Shown here: piece by piece, positions 20,464 to 62,764 of the stretch | Layout: every line of letters starts with the position of its first letter | How positions within the stretch are numbered: position 1 is the first letter of the stretch | Assembly (NCBI GenBank): GCA_031835245.1 | Contig: JAVKOQ010000025.1 | Coordinates: 241,001 to 305,000 of the forward strand | Source of the DNA: Balamuthia mandrillaris | Lineage: Eukaryota; Discosea; Longamoebia; Balamuthiidae | Direction of reading: 5' to 3' | DNA length: 64,000 nt | Translations under genes and position numbers: made by a program | The notes under the pieces: model-generated | Seen by the model: only the letters and a program-made list of their open reading frames with translations | What the model was told of the DNA's origin: nothing | Database searches by the model: none

Positions 20464-21184
20464 TTTCTTGTCTGTTTGCTGCTTCGCTACGCTTTTTTTT
20501 TTTTGCCTCTCAGTGCCAGAAAACGGAAATGACGTCAACAAGTGCTTGTTTCGGAAGGTGAGATGGTGCACAAAACGTGCAGCATTATTGTAGGAAATGA
20601 CCTGACCACGAGGCCAAAGTCGTTTTTTTTTTCAAACCACCAATCCATAATCAATCATTTGACAAAATTAAGATTGCAGAGGAATGGAGAAAAAAAAAGA
20701 GAAGGACAAGGCGGGAGGGAGGCGTTACTTACGAAGATTTCTCTGCGCCATGGCAAAATGGTAGAGCGCTAGGGTAGTGGTTGCAGAAATATCAACTGCA
20801 ACATCATAACCATTTCTGATAACACGGGCAATTACTTTTGGTGCACGTTACACATTCTAAATAACGTCAGCCATGAGCGAGATTTAAGGGGAAAAGCACA
20901 GAAGATGAAACAAAGAGAGAGCGTAGCGGGGGGAGGCTTGTCGTGTCAGACTTTTGCTCCCTCATTCTTGTTTGTGAAAACCACAAAGCGCCTGCCAAAA
21001 AGCAAAACCCCTTCCCAGCCCCTTCCAATGAGGCCTAGTGTAGCGTAACAAGGTAAACTACTGAATCCCTCCTTTGCCCTCACTCTAAACCCGAAAACTT
21101 GAAAGAAAATGCTAATCTGACCCTCGCCTTTCTTTTTGTGCAACAAACTAGTTTACCACCACAAGAAAACATCACAGCCGCACC
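20464..21184. promoter_or_regulatory. Divergent promoter of GYF-protein gene and LRR gene
   Basis: A 721-bp intergenic region with no convincing gene. A perfect TGACGTCA lies at 20530-20537, 67 bp upstream of the GYF-protein ATG. The rest is mixed sequence with short A and T runs. A tRNA-like A-box near 20750 has no matching B-box. Confidence 0.45.
20530..20537. promoter_or_regulatory. TGACGTCA palindrome (CRE-like)
   Basis: Second perfect copy of the 8-bp palindrome also found at 16192 and 46177. It is 67 bp from the start of the GYF-domain gene, a position fit for a proximal promoter element. Confidence 0.45.
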
Positions 21185-23274
21185 ATGAAACCCTCTTCAT
21201 CTGCTACCTCTACTGGTAGCATGAAGAGCCTCCTTCGCAAAGCCGCTCAGGACAAGGACACCGCCCTGCTACTTCATGACCATCACCTGCAGGAGCTGCC
21301 CCCTCAGATCGGGACCGTCACTTCCCTCACCAAGCTGGACCTGACCTTTTGCCGCCTGACCACGCTGCCGCCGCAGGTGGGCAAGCTCTCCCAGCTGCAC
21401 AGCCTCACCGTCATGCATAACCGCCTGCGGCGCCTGCCTGGCAAGATGGGCAAGCTGCGCAGCCTACGGACTCTCAAGCTAGTACAAAACGTGCTAGTGG
21501 CTTTGCCACCTGAAATAGGGCAGCTCTCTCACCTCTCGGTCCTGCACTTGACTGGCAACAGGCTGGAGGGGCTTCCTCCTGAGATAGGCCGTCTCTCAGC
21601 CTCTCTCTCGTTTCTCAGCGTGGACAGCAACCGGCTGCAGTCTTTGCCCATGGAGATAGGCCTTCTGTCTTCTTTGCGGGTGTTGCAGCTGGAACACAAC
21701 CGCCTCACTGAGCTTCCTCCGACCATAGGCCTCCTCTCCAACCTTCATACTCTGGCCTTGTCCCATAACTTTCTTCGCCAACTACCTCCCGAGCTGGGCC
21801 GCCTTTCTGCTTGCCTCCGTACCTTGCTCCTCGCCGACAACTGCCTGCACTCCATTCCAAGCGAGCTCGGTCGGCTGACCTCCTTGAGAAAGCTCCTGTT
21901 GGGAGGCAATAAGCTTGTCTCTCTGCCATCAGAGCTGGGTCGGCTCTCTTCCTTGTTAGAACTGGACCTGTCTCGCAACCAGCTGACCTCTCTCCCAGCA
22001 ACTGGTCTTGGAGGCCTCTCCTCCCTCACTAGCCTCTCCCTCAAACGAAACCAGCTCTCAGGCTCCGCTGCTCTGCCCTCAGATATGACCCGTTTGACCT
22101 CTCTCACTCAGCTGAACCTCTCCGGCAATCGCCTTGATAATTTCCTGCCTCCTTTCCTCGCCGAGCAGCTCTCCCACCAGCTGACCGTGCTCTGCCTTTC
22201 CAACAATCAACTGACCTCATTACCTCCCGAGATCGGCCATCTCTCCACACTTTCCATCCTCCACCTGTCTCGCAATCGCTTAACCTCGCTCCCTCCGGAA
22301 ATAGGACTGCTCTCCTCCTTGGTCTTCCTTCACCTTCACCACAATCAACTGACCTCGTTGCCTCCCGAGATCGGCCTTCTCTCCTCCTCCTTGCAGCACC
22401 TCTCCCTCTCCCACAACCAACTGGGCCCCTCTCTCCCACCCCAACTCTGCCAACTCTCCTCCCTTCGCACTCTTCTCCTCTCTCACAACCGTTTGGAGAC
22501 ATTGCCAGAGGGAATGGGGCGAGGCATGTCCTCTCTCTCTTCCCTCAAATGCGACCACAACAGCCTCTCCAGGTTCCCCTCACAGCTGTTGGAGATTGTG
22601 CCATTGCAAAGCTTGGACCTGGCTCACAATCCTGCCATTCGAGTGAGGTTCCTGCCTTCATGCAAGATGGCCCATCGGCAGGTCTTCCGGAAGGTCTTCT
22701 TGGAGCAGGACGTGGGGTTCAGGCCCTTGACTGCCAGGCAGGTGGCCGCCAGGAACAAAAAGATGGAGGAAAGTTATTGCAAGAGGTATGGCGGAGGCGA
22801 TGGACCCATCCCTACTTTGCTGCATCTTTGCTTCAAGCGGTTGTTAAAGTTTGAAGTGGAAGAAGGAGAGGAGCTACAGGAAGAAGAGAAGCAGCATAAC
22901 AATAAGAACGAGCTGGACGAAGAGGATAATCACGCTGGAGAAAATGTGACAGCAGCTCCTGCGCCCGAACCAGAACCAGAACCAGAACAAGACGAGACAG
23001 GAGCGGAGGATCATCCCAACAGCAACGGCTTCTCCCTCTACTCTGCTTTGCCACACGATCTTCGGTGGCGTCTCAAAAGAGAGAGAAGGAAGTGCAGGGT
23101 GTGCGAGCAAACCTTTTTTGTGGAGGAGGGCAAGCCCACGCTCCACAAGTTTGTGTACCTCAAGGACGAGTCCTCCCTGTTCCGAGGCTACCCCGCCGTG
23201 CCCATCCGTGTGGACGAGCTCTGTTCTTTGGCTTGTTTTCGCTCTTTGGGTTCCTCCTCCTCCTCTTCTTAGGT
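21185..23274 (+). CDS. Leucine-rich-repeat protein with C-terminal Cys module
   Basis: An intronless gene for 695 residues. From about residue 30 to 480 there are about 18 LRRs of the short LPxEIGxLSxLxxLxLxxNxL class, as in the plant PIRL and animal SHOC2/LRRC families. The LRR block is followed by a charged linker with a Glu/Pro repeat (EPEPEPEQD). The C-terminal module has CRVCEQTFFVEEG, then about 35 residues, then ELCSLACFRSL: a CxxC...CSxxC arrangement that could bind zinc. I recall a similar tail in LRRC58-type proteins, but this is from memory. A second, shorter gene with the same order of parts lies at 61581-62764. No signal peptide or membrane segment, so it is probably a cytoplasmic scaffold. 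Exceptionally C/T-rich on the coding strand. Confidence 0.88.
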
Positions 23275-29825: not shown

Positions 29826-30155
29826 GGCTGGCTTTGTTGTTTTCTTTCTTTCCGCTGTTTTTCACGTCGACATGTAAGCTTTTCTTAAGTCGACAAAAAT
29901 TTCGTCCGATCGATCCTTAATCCCTGCATTCTTTTTTTTTGCAAATATATTTTTTTGTTTTTTACAGGTTTAAACCTTTACTGTTAAACCGTTGTATAAA
30001 ACGGCAACAGCAGCACACCTCCCAAAGTGAAAAAAATAAATAAAAAGCAATCTTTGTTTCAAAACTTGCAAAAATTCTTAAATTGTTTTTAAAAAAGCAA
30101 AGAAAAAACACATATGTGATTTTTCTTTGTGGCTTTCAACAAAAAAAATAGACGT
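29826..30155. promoter_or_regulatory. PLD promoter with two GTCGAC boxes; AT-rich spacer
   Basis: A 330-bp gap between the PLD start and the stop of the next minus-strand gene. GTCGAC occurs at 29866-29871 and 29889-29894, 41 and 64 bp from the PLD ATG. The remainder is AT-rich and presumably the 3' end of the secreted repeat-protein transcript. Confidence 0.45.
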
Positions 30156-30871
30156 TTAGTAGTAACCACCATCAGTGTTGCCACCATCGTACTCAGGCTC
30201 AGGGAAGCGGATGTTAGGGATCTCATACTCGTACTTGATGTCAGGGACCTCAACGTTGGGAATCTTGATGTTAGGCAGCTTGATATCATCAACCTGGATC
30301 TTGGGAAGCTTCAAGACGGGGCCAGTCACGGTGGGGATCTGGATGTTGGGAATGTCCACGTTCTCGAGAATAAGGTCCTCAAGGCAGATCTCTCTGGCGG
30401 GAATGGAAGGAATGACGATCTCCTCCAATTGGATCTCAGGGATTCTGATGGTAGGAAGCTGGATCTTAGGGAACTTGATTTCTGTTTCGTTAAAAAAGAG
30501 AGTTAGAGAAGCTCGAATGAGAGAGAGAGAGAGAGAGAGCGAGAGTTACCCGGAATGTAGATCTTGGGACCCTTCACGTTAGGCAGCTCCAACTCGCCCA
30601 TCTCAATCTCAGGGAAGTAGACGTCAGGGACTTTAAGGTCACCGGGGCAGATGTCAGGCACGGTCACGTCTTCAAGGGTGATGTCATCAAAGCAGATCTC
30701 AGGCATGTCAATGGTGTGCTCGTACTCCTGCCAGGTGATGTCAGGAGCGGTATAGTCGCCACCGCTGCTGCTGGAAGTATCACCTCCATCATATCCGTAT
30801 CGTTTGTTGGGAGCGGCAAAAGCAGCAGTGCAGCAGAGGGCCATCAAGGCGAGGGTGAGAAGAAGCTTCAT
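30156..30871 (-). CDS. Secreted protein of hxhPx pentad repeats
   Basis: Two exons (30550-30871 and 30156-30481) join with phase 1 to 215 residues. The N-terminus is a clear signal peptide (MKLLLTLALMALCCTAAFAA). After a Gly/Ser/Tyr linker, residues about 64-190 run in one unbroken five-residue register: hydrophobic, any, hydrophobic, Pro (or Asp/Gly/Glu), polar. Examples are LKVPD, VYFPE, LELPN, IKFPK, IQLPT, IRIPE, IKLPN, IKIPN, VEVPD. An internal duplication relates EICFDDITLEDVTVPDI to EICLEDLILENVDIPNI. Similar pentads occur in AHNAK and periaxin, which are cytosolic. Only three Cys remain in the repeat region (60, 75 and 140) and there is no enzyme motif. A structural, perhaps cell-surface or wall role is inferred. 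A TATA-like TTTAAATA lies about 105 bp upstream. Confidence 0.85.
30517..30545. repeat. (GA)n in intron of pentad-repeat gene
   Basis: The single 68-nt intron of the gene is largely GA repeat on the plus strand, a CT run on the coding strand. Confidence 0.85.
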
Positions 30872-30972
30872 TGTTTAGTAGTTGCTGTTGTTGCGGTGCT
30901 TGTTCAGAGGCTGGCTGCTTGTTTTTTGTTTGTTTGTTGTTTTGTTGTGATGATGATCGGACTGAATGAGCT

Positions 30973-30984
30973 CCTATTTAAATG
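30973..30984 (-). promoter_or_regulatory. TATA-like element of pentad-repeat gene
   Basis: The minus strand reads ATTTAAATAGGAG here, about 105 bp upstream of the ATG at 30871. Such a clear TATA-like box is uncommon among gene starts in this window and would fit high or regulated expression. Inference only. Confidence 0.35.
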
Positions 30985-31304
30985 TTTCGCTTCGACCTGC
31001 GCCACACGTTTCAAAATTAGTGGAACAAGGCGGGGTGCCCGATAAGCCGTTCGTTCCTCTTGAATCTTCGCGTGAAACCCGTGCGTTACATGCCCATATG
31101 CGTTTCCAGCCAATCAGAAATCAGAAATACGAGTTTTCCAGGAGATTTACAGGAAATAATGGCTATCTTTGGTTATCGCGTCGTTACAAAAAACAAGGCC
31201 AGTGAGAGCCCAACCAAGAAATTTGAACGAAAGCAAGAGGAGAGACCCCGAAAAGAAGAAGGAGAAGTGCGTTTCGCTTGTGCTTTATTTTTTTTGGCTG
31301 GGAT

Positions 31305-34690: not shown

Positions 34691-37336
34691 TCAGTTGGAA
34701 GAAGAAGCACCGTTGTTCTTCCTCTCGCGGGCACGTCTGTTTTGGAACCAAATCTGCACTCGCTCCTGAGAGAGTCCGATCTGCTGCGAGATGACCTCTT
34801 TGGTCTGACGGGTGGGCAGCGGGTTCATACGAAAGGCTTCCTCCAGGACAAAGAGCTGCCTGGCGTTGGGACAAATGCGCTTCAAGCGTTGTCTCTTGTT
34901 TTTGTTTGAAGAAGAAGTGGAAGGAGGAGAGTCGGTTGAAGCGGAAGGGGGAGGGGAAGTGGATGTTGATGTTTCGGTCGGATCCCGCTTTTGCTTTCTG
35001 TTGTTGCTCTTCATCTTAGTTGCTCTCTTCTTTTTGCTGTCTTCTTCTAAGGTAGGATGTGTTACGTTTGTGGGTGATTCCTCGCCAAGACTCTGCTCTA
35101 ACTTGACTTGTGCCAAAGTAGGAATATTGGAGGAAGAGACAAAGTGTTGTTGTGGCTGGTTCGTCGCAGGCACAACAACCGGATAGGAAGGAACTCGTGG
35201 CGCCAAACAGGATTGTATCGAGTTTGTTCTACCAACTGGCGAAGAAAAAGAAGAAGACAGGAAAGAGGCGGCAGGTTGTTGTACGCCATCGATACCGTCA
35301 CAGCTACCAAGCTTGTATATGTCCAACGTAACATTTGGTCGAATGCCACCAGAGACTGTGCTTGAGGCAGAAGCAGGGCCAGGATACGAATGACGCTTTT
35401 GGTCGGTTCTGCCACAAGCTGGAGCAGATGATCGTCTGTTGTTAGAGGAAGAGGATTGTTGTTGGTTTTCGAGCAACAACAGTTGTTGGCGAAGGCGAAG
35501 TTGGATCTGCTTTTGCTTCTCGCAGAGCAGTTGGATCTCATCTGTGGGTTCATGAGCTACAGCTCCGCTTGCAGAAGCAGCAGAAAAAGATCCGCGGTAC
35601 AGTGACGTGAACGGAGACTGGGGAGGGCTGTGAGAAAGTCTCCATTGATGAATCGCCCTTTCGCAGCTGGCCACCCCTTCGTCGGACGACGGACTGGAAC
35701 TTCTTCTGTTGATCTGCCAGTCCGGCATTGTTGACTCCGGCCTTGTGGTTGTCGCTCTCTCTTGGTCCATATCGTTGCTCTTCCTATCAACAGGCACGAA
35801 TCGGTGATGCGGTTGCAGAGGAGGGCACTCGCCGGAGAGCATTTGAACGCGTGCTCTCTTGCTGGCAGCAACAAGCAGCTGAGCGGCTTCTACTGGGTGC
35901 TGAATGACTCTCTGGTAGGAAGTTGTCTCGTGATTGTTTTGGCTACTGTTCATCATCATCATTCTCTTCATCATCATCTCCTCCTGACTTCTTTTTCTTC
36001 CCCTTCCATCTGCCAGTTGGTGTTGCTGTGCTGGGAAAGAAGAAGCACTGTTCATCTTCGGTGCCAGATGGTGAGGTTGAAACTCGATCTGCAAAGGCGG
36101 AAGCTGAAATGAAGAAGTGCAGGGGATGTTCGGCATGGATGAGGACAGCGGAGGCAATCGGATGCGCTCAGTCTCTCCCTCTTCCTTCTCCTCTTCCTCC
36201 ATCTTTTGCCACCGTTGGAATGGAATGAAGGCGGAGCTCGAGGATGACGATGAAGACGCAAAGGAAGAAGGAGAAGAAGAAGAGCGTGGACGACAACGAA
36301 GTATAGCACTATCTTTGTCGTCATCAGCAACAGTGCCGAGCAAGGAAGAAGACGAAGGAGAGCGAGGAGGAGACGACGACGGAGAAGAGGCCGTGCAACC
36401 GTCTTGCAGTGACGAGAAAGAGAAGCAGCTGTCCTCTGCCAGCGTCTTCTGTAGTGGTTGTGGCTGTGAAGTGCTTCGTGCACGTGTGGCAATGGTAGTG
36501 GTAGTGGCCAACGATGGAAGCTGCCACAATGACGACGCATCACTGGCTGCAAAGTTGTTCACAAAAGGAACTGCAGTGCTACGCGGGCGACTGTGGTTTC
36601 TTCGTTGGGGAGCTCCCGGAGAGGACGCTGACGCCACAGGTTTCTCCACTTCGCTGTTGTCTTCGTGGTGGCCAGGATCAGTCTTCTCGTTCTTGGTGGA
36701 GGCAGGGGTTCCAACCGGGGATCCCCTTCTTCGGTGGTGCGGCTGTTGGCTGCTGGTGGACCCTCTTCTTCTTCGGTGGGGCTGCTGCTGTTGCTGCTGC
36801 TGCAGTGGCAACGGAGCCACCAACAAGTCAGCAAAGCTACGCTGTGGTTGGATGCCTCCTCTATTCTCCCCTGCAGCTGCTACGTTTTTTGCCAGGTAGA
36901 CAAACGAAGCCGCAGCAGAGGAAGAACGTTCGAGCTCCAGGGATGTAGCCGCCATCGAGAGCATTGGTAACAGTCCGTTCCTATGGTCGTTGTCCGCTAC
37001 TTCGTTTTCTGTCAAAAAAGTAGTGGTTGTCGGTTGAATGCCCTGCTTAGTGGTGGTGGTGTCTTCCGTGGGTGGCGCGTGTGGTGTTGTTTGTGTGATG
37101 AGAGAAGAAGAAAAAGCGGCGGAGAGTTGATCAACGGAAGTAGCGGCGGTGGGATTTTTTGGGTTGTCCGTTGATGATGACGAGGAAGATGGAGGAACGA
37201 GCAGAATTGGGGAGGTCGTGGTCGTTGAGGGCGCAGCAGGGGTGGCCAGAGCGGTGCTGCTGCTGTTGACGGCGCCCAACGTTTCCTCCGTGTCTGTGTC
37301 CTTTGAGGCGGATGGCAACCAACAGGAGATCTTCAT
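34691..37336 (-). CDS. Homeodomain transcription factor with long disordered N-terminus
   Basis: A single coding exon of about 881 residues. The homeodomain is at the extreme C-terminus (KNKRQRLKRICPNARQLFVL, helix 2 TRQTKEVISQQIGLS, recognition helix ERVQIWFQNRRARERK), with the invariant W, F, N and R. Everything before it is low-complexity: Ser, Thr, Pro, Gln, His and Met runs, so about 800 residues are probably disordered activation or repression sequence. The ATG at 37334-37336 lies two bases after a TTTCAG acceptor (AG at 37338-37339). A matching donor AAG|GTGAGT lies at 37547-37548, so a 210-nt leader intron is likely. Joining leaves the upstream frame open, but no upstream ATG is seen in that frame. 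Confidence 0.88.
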   Translation of the reverse strand: MKISCWLPSASKDTDTEETLGAVNSSSTALATPAAPSTTTTSPILLVPPSSSSSSTDNPKNPTAATSVDQLSAAFSSSLITQTTPHAPPTEDTTTTKQGIQPTTTTFLTENEVADNDHRNGLLPMLSMAATSLELERSSSAAASFVYLAKNVAAAGENRGGIQPQRSFADLLVAPLPLQQQQQQQPHRRRRGSTSSQQPHHRRRGSPVGTPASTKNEKTDPGHHEDNSEVEKPVASASSPGAPQRRNHSRPRSTAVPFVNNFAASDASSLWQLPSLATTTTIATRARSTSQPQPLQKTLAEDSCFSFSSLQDGCTASSPSSSPPRSPSSSSLLGTVADDDKDSAILRCRPRSSSSPSSFASSSSSSSSAFIPFQRWQKMEEEEKEEGETERIRLPPLSSSMPNIPCTSSFQLPPLQIEFQPHHLAPKMNSASSFPAQQHQLADGRGRKRSQEEMMMKRMMMMNSSQNNHETTSYQRVIQHPVEAAQLLVAASKRARVQMLSGECPPLQPHHRFVPVDRKSNDMDQERATTTRPESTMPDWQINRRSSSPSSDEGVASCERAIHQWRLSHSPPQSPFTSLYRGSFSAASASGAVAHEPTDEIQLLCEKQKQIQLRLRQQLLLLENQQQSSSSNNRRSSAPACGRTDQKRHSYPGPASASSTVSGGIRPNVTLDIYKLGSCDGIDGVQQPAASFLSSSFSSPVGRTNSIQSCLAPRVPSYPVVVPATNQPQQHFVSSSNIPTLAQVKLEQSLGEESPTNVTHPTLEEDSKKKRATKMKSNNRKQKRDPTETSTSTSPPPSASTDSPPSTSSSNKNKRQRLKRICPNARQLFVLEEAFRMNPLPTRQTKEVISQQIGLSQERVQIWFQNRRARERKNNGASSSN

Positions 37337-37337
37337 C

Positions 37338-37547
37338 CTGAAACAAGGTAAGCGAGAGAAGAGCAAGACGGGTCAGAGCAGATTTTGGGAGCTAAACACA
37401 TGAATTAAGGAGTTGTAGCGAGAGGCGCATTCGAAGAATGGGTACAACTATGCTAAAATGATCATTCTCCCTTTTCTTTGGCCAAAGCGCATCGCTCCAA
37501 ATCCGTAATGAAAGGCGGGATAAGGAAAGGAGGGGAGTTCGACTCAC
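37338..37547 (-). other. Probable 5'-leader intron of homeodomain gene
   Basis: Donor AAG|GTGAGT and acceptor TTTCAG|G flank 210 nt on the minus strand. The start codon follows one base after the acceptor. No coding potential is evident inside. Confidence 0.55.
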
Positions 37548-45175: not shown

Positions 45176-46030
45176 TTAAAAGTCCTCATACTGCTCATAT
45201 CTGCGCTTTCTTGTATTTTCTAAATATCTTCTTTTTGCTTCTTTTCTTTTATTTTCTCTCTCAATCGCGTTTTCTTTTCTTTCTCGCATTTGAGCACGAT
45301 AATATTGGCGCTCATCAACTGCTAACGGGTGGGCAGAAAGTAGATGCTCATTGGTAAGAAGGATGAGAAGATCAATGTTAGCATCAAACTTGTTGTGGTC
45401 ATAGGGATAGGGCTTGCGTAGAAAGGCCCAAAGCTTGTACATTCGTCCAAAAAAGCATTCTATAGGCACCCGAAGCTTTGCTAGCTCTCTGTTTTGAAAA
45501 CGTTCTGCTGCTGTCCTCACCTGAGATTGTTTTTTGATAGTTATTCTTCGAAAACCAGGAGTATCTTGAGCTGGGCCAACATAACCTTTGTCAAACAATG
45601 CACTCCAGCTTGTTTCCGTATTACCATCAACACGGTGGATCATGGCAGTCTCTTGGGCACTTTTGGTAAGGTATGGGATGTAGGCCGAGTAGTGCTCTTT
45701 GAGAATGGAGTAGTCATGTCGGGCTCCAGGTGCTCCAGGAAAGGAGAACAGAGCAAAGTGAGGAGGAGAGGCCATCACCGCAACTTCCTTCTTCAACGCA
45801 TAGATTCTGTTCTTTCCATCAAAGTAGTGTTTGCCTTCCTCAAACCGAGAGTTGTTTGGACGAAAGACTTCCACACTGGTAGAGTCAACGAGGAGGGCAA
45901 TGTGAGCGTATTGGGAGAGCGTTTCATCCTCGTCCATCAAAGGGATTGGTCGGCGACGATTGCCTTGCCACCATCTGTCCTCAAGCACCTCCAAAAGGAT
46001 GGGCCGGATCCTGTTTATCGCAGCTTCCAC
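45176..46030 (-). CDS. DDE_Tnp_4-type transposase (PIF/Harbinger superfamily)
   Basis: 284 residues, the only gene of the transposon. The three acidic residues of the DDE nuclease are seen at LLVDSTSVEVF (first Asp), GAPGARHDYSILKE (second Asp) and RVPIECFFGRMYKLW (Glu). Other family features are the block FDKGYVG and the C-terminal LLILLTNEHLL. The tail is rich in Arg, Lys and Glu. It cuts and inserts element ends; the inverted repeats are the presumed substrate. The ATG at 46030 leaves about 150 bp to a TGACGTCA palindrome inside the element. An additional upstream exon cannot be excluded. The frame is intact, so the protein may be functional. Confidence 0.9.
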   Translation of the reverse strand: MEAAINRIRPILLEVLEDRWWQGNRRRPIPLMDEDETLSQYAHIALLVDSTSVEVFRPNNSRFEEGKHYFDGKNRIYALKKEVAVMASPPHFALFSFPGAPGARHDYSILKEHYSAYIPYLTKSAQETAMIHRVDGNTETSWSALFDKGYVGPAQDTPGFRRITIKKQSQVRTAAERFQNRELAKLRVPIECFFGRMYKLWAFLRKPYPYDHNKFDANIDLLILLTNEHLLSAHPLAVDERQYYRAQMRERKENAIERENKRKEAKRRYLENTRKRRYEQYEDF

Positions 46031-46176
46031 GGTGGTTTGTTTTGTCTCTTCGCTTTGTTCGTTCGCTGCGGAAAACGGGCGTAACAGTGAACAACCGCGA
46101 AGTAGTTACGTTTGCCACCGGAAATATTACATTTCGGATTATCTTATTTGGCTCCATAGAAAAAGTAAATCACATT

Positions 46177-54054: not shown

Positions 54055-54854
54055 TTTTTTTCTTTTTCTTTTGGGCAAAAACCAAACTGAATCGTTAACC
54101 CAATGAAAAATCAAAGAAATCACCCGGATCCGGCAAAAAGGAAAATTAATCATCACGATCGGGCGAATGGCGGCGCAATTTCCGGGGTAAATGCAGCCAA
54201 AAAGGTAAAGAAGAAAAAAACACAAACAAGTTTAAAAAAAAAAGTCGCTTCGGCCAGAAAGAGTAGCAGCAGCAGCAGCAGCACTGGGTGAAGAGGTACG
54301 TTGCACACAGCTCCACATTATCCTTCTTCCATCTTCTTTCTTTCTTTCTTTTTTTTTACTTTACTTTCCATGCTCCTCTTGCTTTCTCTTTCTCTCTGCC
54401 AAAAAAAAAAAAATCTTTGTTACGAGATTTTTTTTTCTTTTCCAAATCTTTCAAGAGAGAAAGTGAGCGAAATAGAAGAGAAATTCAAGAACAAGCAGAG
54501 AGCAAAAAAAAAAAGTGAAGAGCGAGAGGGAGGCTCAGAGGTGATGAGGCGTTGTCCCCTCAAATTTTAAAAAGACAAAAAAAAAGAAGGAAGTGTGAGA
54601 GAGACGACAGCGAGTTGTCCGCTGTTTTTCCTTTTGGGTTTGGCGAACAAACCGACAGAACCAACTTCCTTTTTTCTTTGTTCCTCTTTCTGTTTATTTG
54701 TTGGTGGTTTTCTTCTTCTCCTTCTTCTTTTGCTTTTTTTTCAAACGATAGAACACAACCAACCAACACACGCTGTTACTCAGTGGTCAGCCTCCACACC
54801 TTTAATTTGGAAGGAGAGTTTGAGAGAGAAGAAAGAGAGAGAGAGAGTTGCAGA
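54055..54854. promoter_or_regulatory. Divergent region between acidic-protein gene and UGPase
   Basis: 800 bp. It holds CAG repeats (54263-54282), long T and A runs around 54340-54440, and a (GA)n run at 54826-54847 just before the UGPase ATG, in the transcript leader. No gene is seen. Confidence 0.4.
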
Positions 54855-57028
<2,174 letters not shown>

Positions 57029-57121: not shown

Positions 57122-59130
57122 TCATATGTGAAGAAAACGATTTGCAGTTGAAGTTGTGGTGGAAGCAGCAGCAGCAGCAGAGGCTTTTCTTCTTTGTGCT
57201 ATGGTGGACTCGAGCGGCGTTTTGAAGAAGAGACCATCCCGCTGCACGTCGATCGCTTTGTTCATGGAGGAGCGGAGCGTTTGCCGTTTGTCCATCGTTA
57301 GCTCTTGGTCCTGCTTGGTGGCTCCTGGTCGGTCCAGTTCCTCTTCTTCCTCCTCTTCCTCCACTTCTTCAGTTGCTGCTTCTGCTGTAGGTTTTTCAGG
57401 CGTGAACCATGCGTGCTTTAGCGTTTGTTTTGTGGTGTAACGAATTGCTGGATCTTTTTCTAGCAGATGTCTTATCAATTCTTTGGCTGCATTTTTTTGT
57501 TGCAAGCTGGTTTAAAACAAAACCACGAAAAGAAAGAGGAACGGAGTTCCTTACCACAACCAGAAACGAGGAGAGAATCGGGATCAGCAGGAAACTCGTA
57601 GAGGCCTTCTTCAACGAGATCCATTATCTCTTCATCGTCCTCGCCATGGAATGGTGGCTTTCCAAATAAACTATTCCACAAATTCATAAGAAAGAAGGAG
57701 GAGAGGGAGAGGGAGGCAAAAGTGACGTACACGAAATACATTACACAACCAAGAGCCCACATGTCAACTCCATTATCATAAATTTCATTTGCTACTATCT
57801 CAGGCGCTGCGTTCATTTTCAGTGAGAAGGACGAAGAAGCCAAAGAAGCAGAATAAGGCGAAGGAAAGGAGGAGGAGGAGGAGGAGGAGGAGGAGGAGGA
57901 GGAGGAGGAGGAGGAGGAGGAGGAGGAGGAGGAGGAGGAGGAGGAGGAGGAGGAGGAGGAGGAGGAGGAGGAGGGAGGAGGAGGAGGGAGGAGGAGGAGG
58001 GAGGAGGAGGAGGAGGAGGAGGAGGAGGAGGAGGGAGGAGGAGGAGGAGGAGGAGGAGGAGGAGGAGGAGGAGGAGGGAGGAGGAGGGAGGAGGAGGAGG
58101 AGGAGGAGGAGGAGGAGGAGGGAGCAAGAGCAAGATCTAGAAGAAGAAGAAGAAGAAGAAGAAGAAGAAGAAGAAGAAGAAGAAGAAGAAGAAGAAGAAG
58201 AAGAACAAGAAGCGAAGAAATACAAACCAACGTAGTTGACAGAGCCGCAAGGGGTGGCCAAGCTGTCTTTGCCAAACTTTGCCAATCCAAAGTCAGTTAT
58301 GCAGATATCCGTTTTTTTAGGATCTTTGGAAGAGCACAACATATTCTCCGGCTTAGGAAAGAAATAAAGAAAGGTTAGCAACATGGGAACAACTTAACAA
58401 CAAAAAAAGTAATCCATCGTTGAACATACCTTCAAGTCTCTGTGACAGATGCCTTTGTCGTGGAGATAGTCCAATCCTAAACACATCTGACGGATGATCC
58501 GGCGGGCGTCTGCCTCGCTGAACTTTTGGTTTCGTACAATAGCGTCAAACAGCTCTCCACCTTCCATCCTTTGGAAACAATGTCACAACAAATAACAGAA
58601 CGAACGCGCGAGGAAGTGATGAGAAACATGCGACAAAAGCATAAGAGGAAAGAAAGAACCTAACGAAAGAAAGGGCGATCAAATAAAAGAACAACGAACA
58701 AAGAAGAACGAAGAAGAAGAAGAAGAACAAGAACAAGAAGAAGAAGAACAAGAACAAGAACAAAGAAGAAGCACAAGAACAAGAAGAAGAAGAAGAAGAA
58801 GAAGAAGAACAAGAACAAGAAGACGAAGCTAAAACGAAGAAGGAGACGGAGAAGTAGAAGGAGAATATGAGATGGGCGAAAGTACAAGTCGAGAACGAGG
58901 CAAATGTCCAAATGGGACTCATAGATTTGGTGCACTTTAACAATGTAAGGGTGGTCGCACTCCCGAAGGATGTCTATTTCGGTGAGCACCCGCTGCTTTC
59001 TCTTGGCGGTGTCTATCTTGGCCTTGTCTATGATCTTGATGGCATACTTCTTTCCGGTCGTCAGCTGAACGCCTAAAACTACATCGGAGAAACTCCCACT
59101 ACCAATCAAACAAGGGAAGTTAAAAAAAAG

Positions 59131-61580: not shown

Positions 61581-62764
61581 ATGCCGTTCCATTCCAAACC
61601 GGAAGATGTAACTCAAAATGCCATACAAGAGTGGCTTGCTGAAAATGAAGTGCGAGACCCCGAAGAAAAGCGTGCTCTTCTTCTGCAATCAGTAGAGCTT
61701 GGCACACTTCCTGTTTGCTCTCTATGCTCCCTTCATATTACTTGGTACCTTTGCTTTTCTCTTCTCCACGCTTTTATTTGTTCTGTTCTCTGCCCTCTTC
61801 TCCGCTCTTTTCTCTGATCCTTCTTCCCTGTCCCTTCGCTCTACTCACATTTTTTAACAAAAGGCTGGTTTTAGAAGATGCCCACATACACACCATTCCG
61901 CCGGAGATCAACTGTCTTTGCTCGCTTGAAGGCCTCCGCTTAGGGCGCAATCGTTTGAAAACATTGCCCAAAGAAATAACTTGTCTCAACAAGTTGTTAG
62001 TGTTGGACTTAGACCACAACTGCCTTTGTTCCCTTCCTCATACTATCCATGGGTTGAGCAATCTTCAGTGTTTACACCTTCGTGGGAACTCTTCTTTACG
62101 TTGCTTGCCATGTTCCATCCTGCAGCTGCGTTTGTCCGAGTTTACCATCGACGAACTTACCACCAAAGAAGAGCAGTTCCTACACTCGTTTTTTGATGGT
62201 TGCAAAAAGAGAAACGACAGCTCAGCCATTCCTACCTATCATGCGCCCAACGACATAACTCCGCAAAAACAAGAAGAGGATGAAGAAGTCGAAGACGAAG
62301 CTGAAGAAAAAGAGAGCAAAACGAAAGTTTGGACGAGCTACACGCCGAGTTCGCTGGTAGACTTGTGCTTAGCGCATTTAGCATGTGCTCGTGAACAACA
62401 CATGGCCAAGGAGGAGGAAGAAGAGGACGAAAGAGCGAGTGACATTGCGTTTTTACCCGAAGAGTTAAAGCACAGCCTGCAATGCAAACGTAAAGAATGC
62501 CACGCGTGTTCCGCTCCTTTTTTCAACAGGGGAACTATCGACGAGCAGATTGAACGAAGAACCTGGAAGCAGCACTGCGACCTCCACGACGAAGAGCAGC
62601 CAGAGGAAGAGAACGAAGAGGAAGAGCGTTTATGCCGTGTTCTGAGGAAACTGTGGAGAAGAGCGCCCGCTCAGCAATTTTGTTTCTGTTCGTTGTTGGG
62701 CAGAAAGGTCCTCCTTCACGGAAACTACTGTCTTGCTTGTGGCGGCTCTCCTTCTGCCGTTTGA
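61581..62764 (+). CDS. Short LRR protein with Cys-rich C-terminal module
   Basis: Two exons (61581-61744, 61864-62764) give 354 residues. About four LRRs lie in the second exon (IHTIPPEINCLCSLEGLRLG, LKTLPKEITCLNKLLVLDLD, LPHTIHGLSNLQCLHLRGN). A linker rich in Glu and Lys follows, then TPSSLVDLCLAHLA and FLPEELKHSL. The C-terminal module has KECHACSAPFFNRG, an acidic spacer, FCFCSLLGRKV and NYCLACGGS: several Cys pairs. Order of parts and the CxxC-FF signature match the larger LRR gene at 21185-23274, so the two are probably distant paralogues. A zinc-binding role of the Cys pairs is inferred. An apparent leader intron ends directly at the ATG. Confidence 0.8.

Follow-up and report, generated by a model that had tools for sequence, protein, structure and literature searches.

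The window analysed here, a 64,000-nucleotide stretch of contig C24 from Balamuthia mandrillaris, holds a gene for what we judge, from sequence, to have about an even chance of being a secreted structural protein, in which an ordered beta module of fixed length would be tied by heptad arms into the cell coat or cyst wall. We infer all three elements of this reading, and our certainty is highest for secretion, lower for order and lowest for linkage. The host is a soil-dwelling amoeba capable of infecting the brain, in agreement with the earlier note on this DNA, which had spoken of a protist.

The gene lies at positions 30156-30871 on the minus strand, with its start codon at 30871 and its stop at 30156, the same interval that had been proposed before, and its spliced translation is a product of 215 amino acids from two exons, neither of which gives the protein alone. 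Exon 1 (30550-30871, minus strand) holds the signal peptide, the linker and the pentads up to residue 107 together with the first base of codon 108; a CT-rich GT-AG intron of 68 nt in phase 1 follows (30482-30549, minus strand), and exon 2 (30156-30481, minus strand) carries the remaining pentads, the tail and the stop. At the N-terminus stands the signal peptide MKLLLTLALMALCCTAAFAA (residues 1-20; 30812-30871, minus strand), recognized by inspection and without a predictor. It leads into a short Tyr/Gly linker (residues 21-54; 30710-30811, minus strand) made of a YDGGDVx array in short form and a APDITWQEYEHTI neck, then into the pentad domain of about 29 xIxIP pentads (residues 55-203, 149 residues; 30195-30709, minus strand, with the intron within), and finally into a GGYY tail (30159-30194, minus strand) whose end reads YDGGNTDGGYY. 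The earlier claim of a secreted protein with a signal peptide is very probably correct; a similar signal-peptide-like start is seen by inspection in all 21 intact close copies of the gene. Upstream, a TATA-like box sits 111 nt 5' of the ATG (30975-30982, minus strand), as a pattern match without a control run; such boxes occur in 21 of 26 upstream stretches, in pentad and heptad gene sets alike, and a CA-rich leader is likewise common to the two sets. Both features are ordinary.

Within the pentad domain, 27 consecutive pentads keep a single register (residues 57-191), and the span 55-203 includes the end units. Over that longer span, one slot holds 18 of the 23 prolines and two slots hold 51 of the 63 hydrophobic residues, and there are 17 instances of the string hydrophobic-x-hydrophobic-Pro, whereas 20,000 residue shuffles gave 4.0 on average and never more than 11. 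The repeat had been described as uninterrupted, which is nearly true of the 27 units in register; some Pro slots, however, hold D, E, G or R, a few hydrophobic slots hold P, G or A, and the register stops at KYEYEIP. On a hydropathy/charge plot, residues 57-191 fall on the folded side of the Uversky line (0.512 vs 0.448). The internal duplication that the earlier note had read in a quoted pair of segments finds no backing: the 16-pentad offset of that pair has p = 0.008 but is one lag of 21, the best run in the protein has p = 0.56 given the all-pentad background, and in the family profile p is 0.13 for the 16-pentad lag and, family-wise, 0.64 for the largest z over all lags. Growth by internal copying is rejected as well, because the pentad core keeps one length across the 21 intact close copies and six representatives.

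In the organism's own genome (64.8 Mb, 775 contigs), the pentad family occupies 28 loci, 24 of them close and 4 divergent. The DNA search yielded 48 matches, of which 16 rows that matched the CT-rich intron only were dropped before counting, as was locus L026, to give 25 loci (24 close copies and the C100 member); a query with the divergent C100 member (L025) added those on C149, C377 and C5. Three of the close copies (L008, L023 and L024) look broken and were excluded from the alignments and selection tests, leaving 21 intact; in the alignment, L019 was taken minus one residue after the start, and in L009 and L020 an in-frame Met further upstream was disregarded. The intron fits the same place in all 24 close copies, as modelled by a search built to look there, with lengths of 60-189 nt. 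Since the intact copies form 14 groups at 97% core identity, some of them are probably alleles or recent duplicates. Contigs C213 and C136, with two members each, align collinearly for about 20 kb at an identity that is mostly 89-93% but drops to 77-79% in places. The window copy has only about 1 kb in common with these contigs: DNA similarity to the C213 copy covers the gene with about 216 nt upstream and at most 118 nt downstream (30038-31087, minus strand), and similarity to the C136 copy covers 30091-31087 (minus strand). The rest of the window matched none of the five stretches compared, except for paralogue matches to the gene. The protein database searches found a single family member, P0004, annotated as 'hypothetical protein QOT17_019997 [Balamuthia mandrillaris]'; it starts at an upstream Met, which puts about 50 residues ahead of the signal peptide, and ends at the internal stop of the C325 copy (L024). 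The earlier note had overlooked the paralogues, the conservation of the intron and the fusion to a YDGGDVx heptad module.

The length of the pentad region is constant in all members compared. The core measures 163 residues in all 21 intact close copies, and the distance from the MP pentad to PEP is 149 residues in each of six representatives (L001, L009, L017 and the C100, C149 and C377 members). The representatives of the three deep lineages retain the pentad domain length without an indel at 45-51% identity, and seven aligned representatives, at 45-77% identity to the window protein, are gap-free over residues 56-203, with 47 invariant columns in the whole seven-member alignment and conservation of the irregular elements P76-G77-D78, P135, G161-P162 and Y193-E194. 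The deep members carry two introns (C100), one (C149) and three (C377); in each, no other set of GT-AG joins restores the protein reading. The heptad array is absent from all three.

Selection on the core is purifying and acts slot by slot. Pairwise Nei-Gojobori dN/dS lies between 0.06 and 0.39 in 18 hand-picked pairs of the 210 that could be formed. In the comparisons of L001 with L009, L011 and L017, which share one branch and have 27-28 codons per slot, pN and pS are 0.38-0.43 and 0.39-0.52 for the middle slot, 0.17-0.18 and 0.36-0.43 for the first hydrophobic slot (hyd1), 0.10-0.13 and 0.62-0.68 for the second (hyd2), 0.07-0.12 and 0.49-0.57 for the Pro slot, and 0.19-0.28 and 0.45-0.53 for the position after Pro. 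Between subfamilies the middle slot is thus close to neutral, or nearly free, and conservation marks the hydrophobic and Pro slots. The nearer pair L001-L004, however, shows constraint on the middle slot (pN 0.19, pS 0.69), which speaks against its full neutrality. Across six representatives, hydrophobic residues fill 93% of the hyd1 cells, 82% of the hyd2 cells and 0-18% of those in the other slots, as is typical where buried and exposed positions alternate. Constant length together with slot-specific selection argues for a folded domain of fixed size and regular geometry rather than a drifting disordered tract. No clear coil superperiod emerged; among 160 tests, hyd2 volume gave the strongest signal, at lags of 5 and 7 pentads (uncorrected p 0.001-0.002).

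Pentapeptide-repeat proteins offer a geometric comparison, having a five-residue repeat with two inward residues per repeat and a normally small slot that is usually Ala. The Balamuthia pentads have the same period and may likewise point two residues inward, and for one distant low-complexity database match, P0001, the precomputed label is PF13599, a pentapeptide-repeat family like PF00805; the domain might be pictured as a four-sided (Rfr) beta-helix with a bulky core and four pentads per coil. We regard this as improbable. Bulky I/V fills the normally small slot and Pro occupies the corner slot, the four-pentad superperiod was not found, and no pentapeptide-repeat Pfam model matched in seven representatives and single protein tables. 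The pentads could instead form a disordered or polyproline-like chain serving as a flexible or elastic spacer, by analogy with the PEVK-rich pentads of periaxin; a review (PMC7072810) deduces from their composition that these are extended or disordered at least in part, and states that there is no experiment on the matter. High Pro content would suit such a tether, but an invariant domain length, the conserved irregular elements, the constraint on the hydrophobic slots and the high hydrophobicity of the pentad run would not, and we consider the spacer unlikely.

A role at a lipid surface deserves somewhat closer attention, though we still think it rather unlikely. Here the small secreted protein would bind lipid, or lie on a membrane, through an amphipathic, proline-kinked pentad beta belt resembling that of ApoB-100, which is the best PDB match and the only PDB sequence below E = 0.1 (2.7e-4 with one protein, 1.1e-6 with the profile). 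Sixty-six residues align with it gap-free, and the belt (PDB 9bd1, residues 2623-2754) is a proline-punctuated run of alternating hydrophobics in a secreted protein, as here. The reversed sequence found nothing and one residue shuffle missed ApoB too, and one pentad-order shuffle retrieved it only at E = 3.8. Against this, in a fuller test with 5000 shuffles of each kind, the observed alignment score was reached 465 times when the pentad order was shuffled, 245 times when residues were shuffled within slots and 2382 times when the ApoB pentads (a trimmed piece) were shuffled. The similarity is thus not clearly above the shuffled controls and seems mostly to reflect the shared pentad pattern; homology to ApoB was set aside as unlikely, and we read the likeness as probable convergence on the pentad rather than common descent, although a small excess over the controls persists. 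The two proteins also differ in build, ApoB-100 having 4,563 residues, whereas the Balamuthia protein has 215 and no Vitellogenin_N domain (PF01347). Genome-wide, PF01347 scored above its cut-off of 24 once, at 24.4 bits, in what by eye looks like an armadillo-type repeat protein, and a large lipid transfer protein in this genome was rejected as a candidate. Finally, a multi-copy protein with the form of a secreted one, for which no homologue was found outside Balamuthia, could act as an adhesin or secreted effector on prey or host instead of having a structural part. This strikes us as very unlikely, given that the scans found no catalytic, lectin or pore domain and that selection is purifying, not diversifying.

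No Pfam or NCBIfam model fits the pentads convincingly in seven representatives and single protein tables, so that the earlier suggestion of a new family holds in the sense that the pentads have no convincing match to any curated family. In NCBIfam, one of the seven members matched one family, at E = 0.044. Calycin_like (PF13944), a known beta-barrel family, gave matches at E up to 0.1 in six of seven representatives, and the whole-protein score of the C149 member passed the cut-off (32.7 vs 30), the only one to do so in five tables; the pentad proteins, however, match only part of the profile, the best stretch covering 23-28 of its 124 positions and no single stretch passing. Pfam scans of the pentad proteins revealed no PDZ domain, no cellulose-binding, wall-binding or lectin domain, and no catalytic or pore domain. 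The known cellulose-binding and lectin domains of Acanthamoeba cyst-wall lectins are therefore not found here, which leaves room for a wall protein of another kind.

Protein-database searches yielded no convincing homologue outside Balamuthia. The first returned one low-complexity hit (P0001) among 184 candidates and the profile search returned P0003 and P0004 among 541; P0001 and P0003 are the only non-Balamuthia hits, and their pentad runs are more monotonous or shorter. P0003, Cetraspora pellucida 8266_t from a fungus, resembles our protein in its signal-like start and in a brief series of comparable pentads, but the match spans 36% of the query (E = 2.4e-5) and its pentads give way to hydrophobic membrane-like segments; the likeness is probably convergent. 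A heptad-plus-pentad query found nothing at E 1e-3 among 7,993 scored sequences, a weak negative, because Balamuthia's own heptad proteins were missed too and P0004 was excluded by the length limit. No viral or prokaryotic relative emerged from searches with two peptide patterns each, which are of limited reach: they matched 199 times in viral and 73 times in prokaryote contigs, and none of these matches was confirmed. Nor did the C100 member (L025) match phages by tblastn. The family is not named in the portions of the open-access literature that were searched.

The comparison with AHNAK and periaxin that had been drawn before is apt as far as the pentad idea goes and fails for domain context and compartment. 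Long runs of hydrophobic-x-hydrophobic-Pro-polar pentads characterize AHNAK, and the Balamuthia protein and both vertebrate proteins have such runs in common. AHNAK and periaxin, however, are intracellular and far longer, and periaxin and AHNAK2 are PDZ-linked, whereas the amoebal protein has a signal peptide, as recognized by inspection, and a pentad domain fixed at 149 residues without PDZ. The pentad motif of periaxin is described in the available text of PMC7072810.

The second module of the family is the heptad. Fourteen of the 21 intact close copies (L009 to L022) have as their linker 4-15 YDGGDVx heptads in a row; the window copy has the short form, with 2 units by simple count, and the number ranges from 2 to 15 across the 21. 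A heptad query against the own genome returned at least 190 matches (150 of 442 candidates scored), and a hand count among the matches listed gives at least 40 further heptad loci without a pentad match, some of which will be alleles. The 17 heptad regions that were read (L038-L054) begin with signal-peptide-like stretches and a motif that is similar among them, mostly xYGxGDV, and have long heptad arrays. In 12 of them the protein closes with a SAASxxAFWF-like tail, and L041 and L047 have their array divided between frames. Heptad-array genes were seen on contigs C73, C343, C50, C438, C169 and others. A shortened heptad array exceeded the Pfam cut-off for PF21930, a beta-helical trimerisation domain (32.2 vs 27), and for DUF3869 (27.5 vs 24.5), in short pieces each time, and both matches are leads only. 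The strings YDGGDV and YDGGD retrieved no relevant paper from the open-access literature.

Several other features of the window and the assembly may be recorded. In the window, a long open frame at 34691-37372 (minus strand) ends in a homeodomain-like stretch, the leucine-rich-repeat proteins at 21152-23272 and 61649-62764 (plus strand) resemble each other in a Cys-containing segment at the C-terminus, and an open frame at 45176-46105 (minus strand) resembles a transposase-derived protein, all as judged by eye. Very long AGG and AGA tracts of 83 and 24.7 copies (57867-58212) adjoin exons that by eye are protein-kinase-like. A frame at 54519-55664 (plus strand) resembles, again by eye, UDP-sugar pyrophosphorylase, an enzyme whose product feeds cellulose-type wall synthesis. 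The assembly holds two differing eukaryotic 18S rRNA genes, L030 on C10 and L031 on C24, scoring 1310 and 1663 bits to RF01960. A Balamuthia 18S probe matches the C10 gene only. Primer BalaR1621 matches the C24 gene only, and both genes hold BalaF1451 exactly (primer as given in the accessible text of PMC7473209). Contig C3 bears a bacterial rRNA operon (L029; RF00177 at 1507 bits and the start of RF02541), which indicates that the assembly also holds bacterial DNA. Its universal-primer site contains neither BalaF1451, BalaR1621 nor the probe; the contig is bacterial, be it contaminant, food or symbiont.

Returning to the structural protein, one may picture each pentad as a short beta-strand, its two hydrophobic residues turned inward and its nearly free middle residue outward, with Pro and an acidic or polar residue at the corner. 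The pentad domain would then be an ordered, elongated, beta-rich rod of constant length, and the Tyr/Asp/Gly heptad arms could join it to the heptad-only proteins through self-assembly, Ca2+ or tyrosine cross-links, in the extracellular matrix, cell coat or cyst wall. More speculatively, the coat or wall might be built from two modules so far without a counterpart elsewhere, a new beta-solenoid of proline-cornered pentads that never varies in length and a YDGGDVx heptad polymer rich in tyrosine, with fusion proteins that carry both and so link the rigid rods into a heptad matrix; this we put forward as a doubtful but conceivable extension. The accessible parts of PMC8040595, PMC10471605, PMC9596261, PMC12419007, PMC7072810, PMC7473209 and PMC8569187 contain no expression or location data on pentad proteins.

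Balamuthia infection is rare and almost always fatal, according to the available text of PMC10471605, and the portions of the literature found give no protein-level description of the surface and cyst wall of this amoeba. The two linked multi-copy repeat families, both predicted to be secreted, are candidates for wall proteomics, antibodies and diagnostics. Furthermore, with its fixed length and one nearly free slot, the domain may serve as a small-protein test case for the fold of the xIxIP pentad, which occurs also in AHNAK, periaxin and ApoB.
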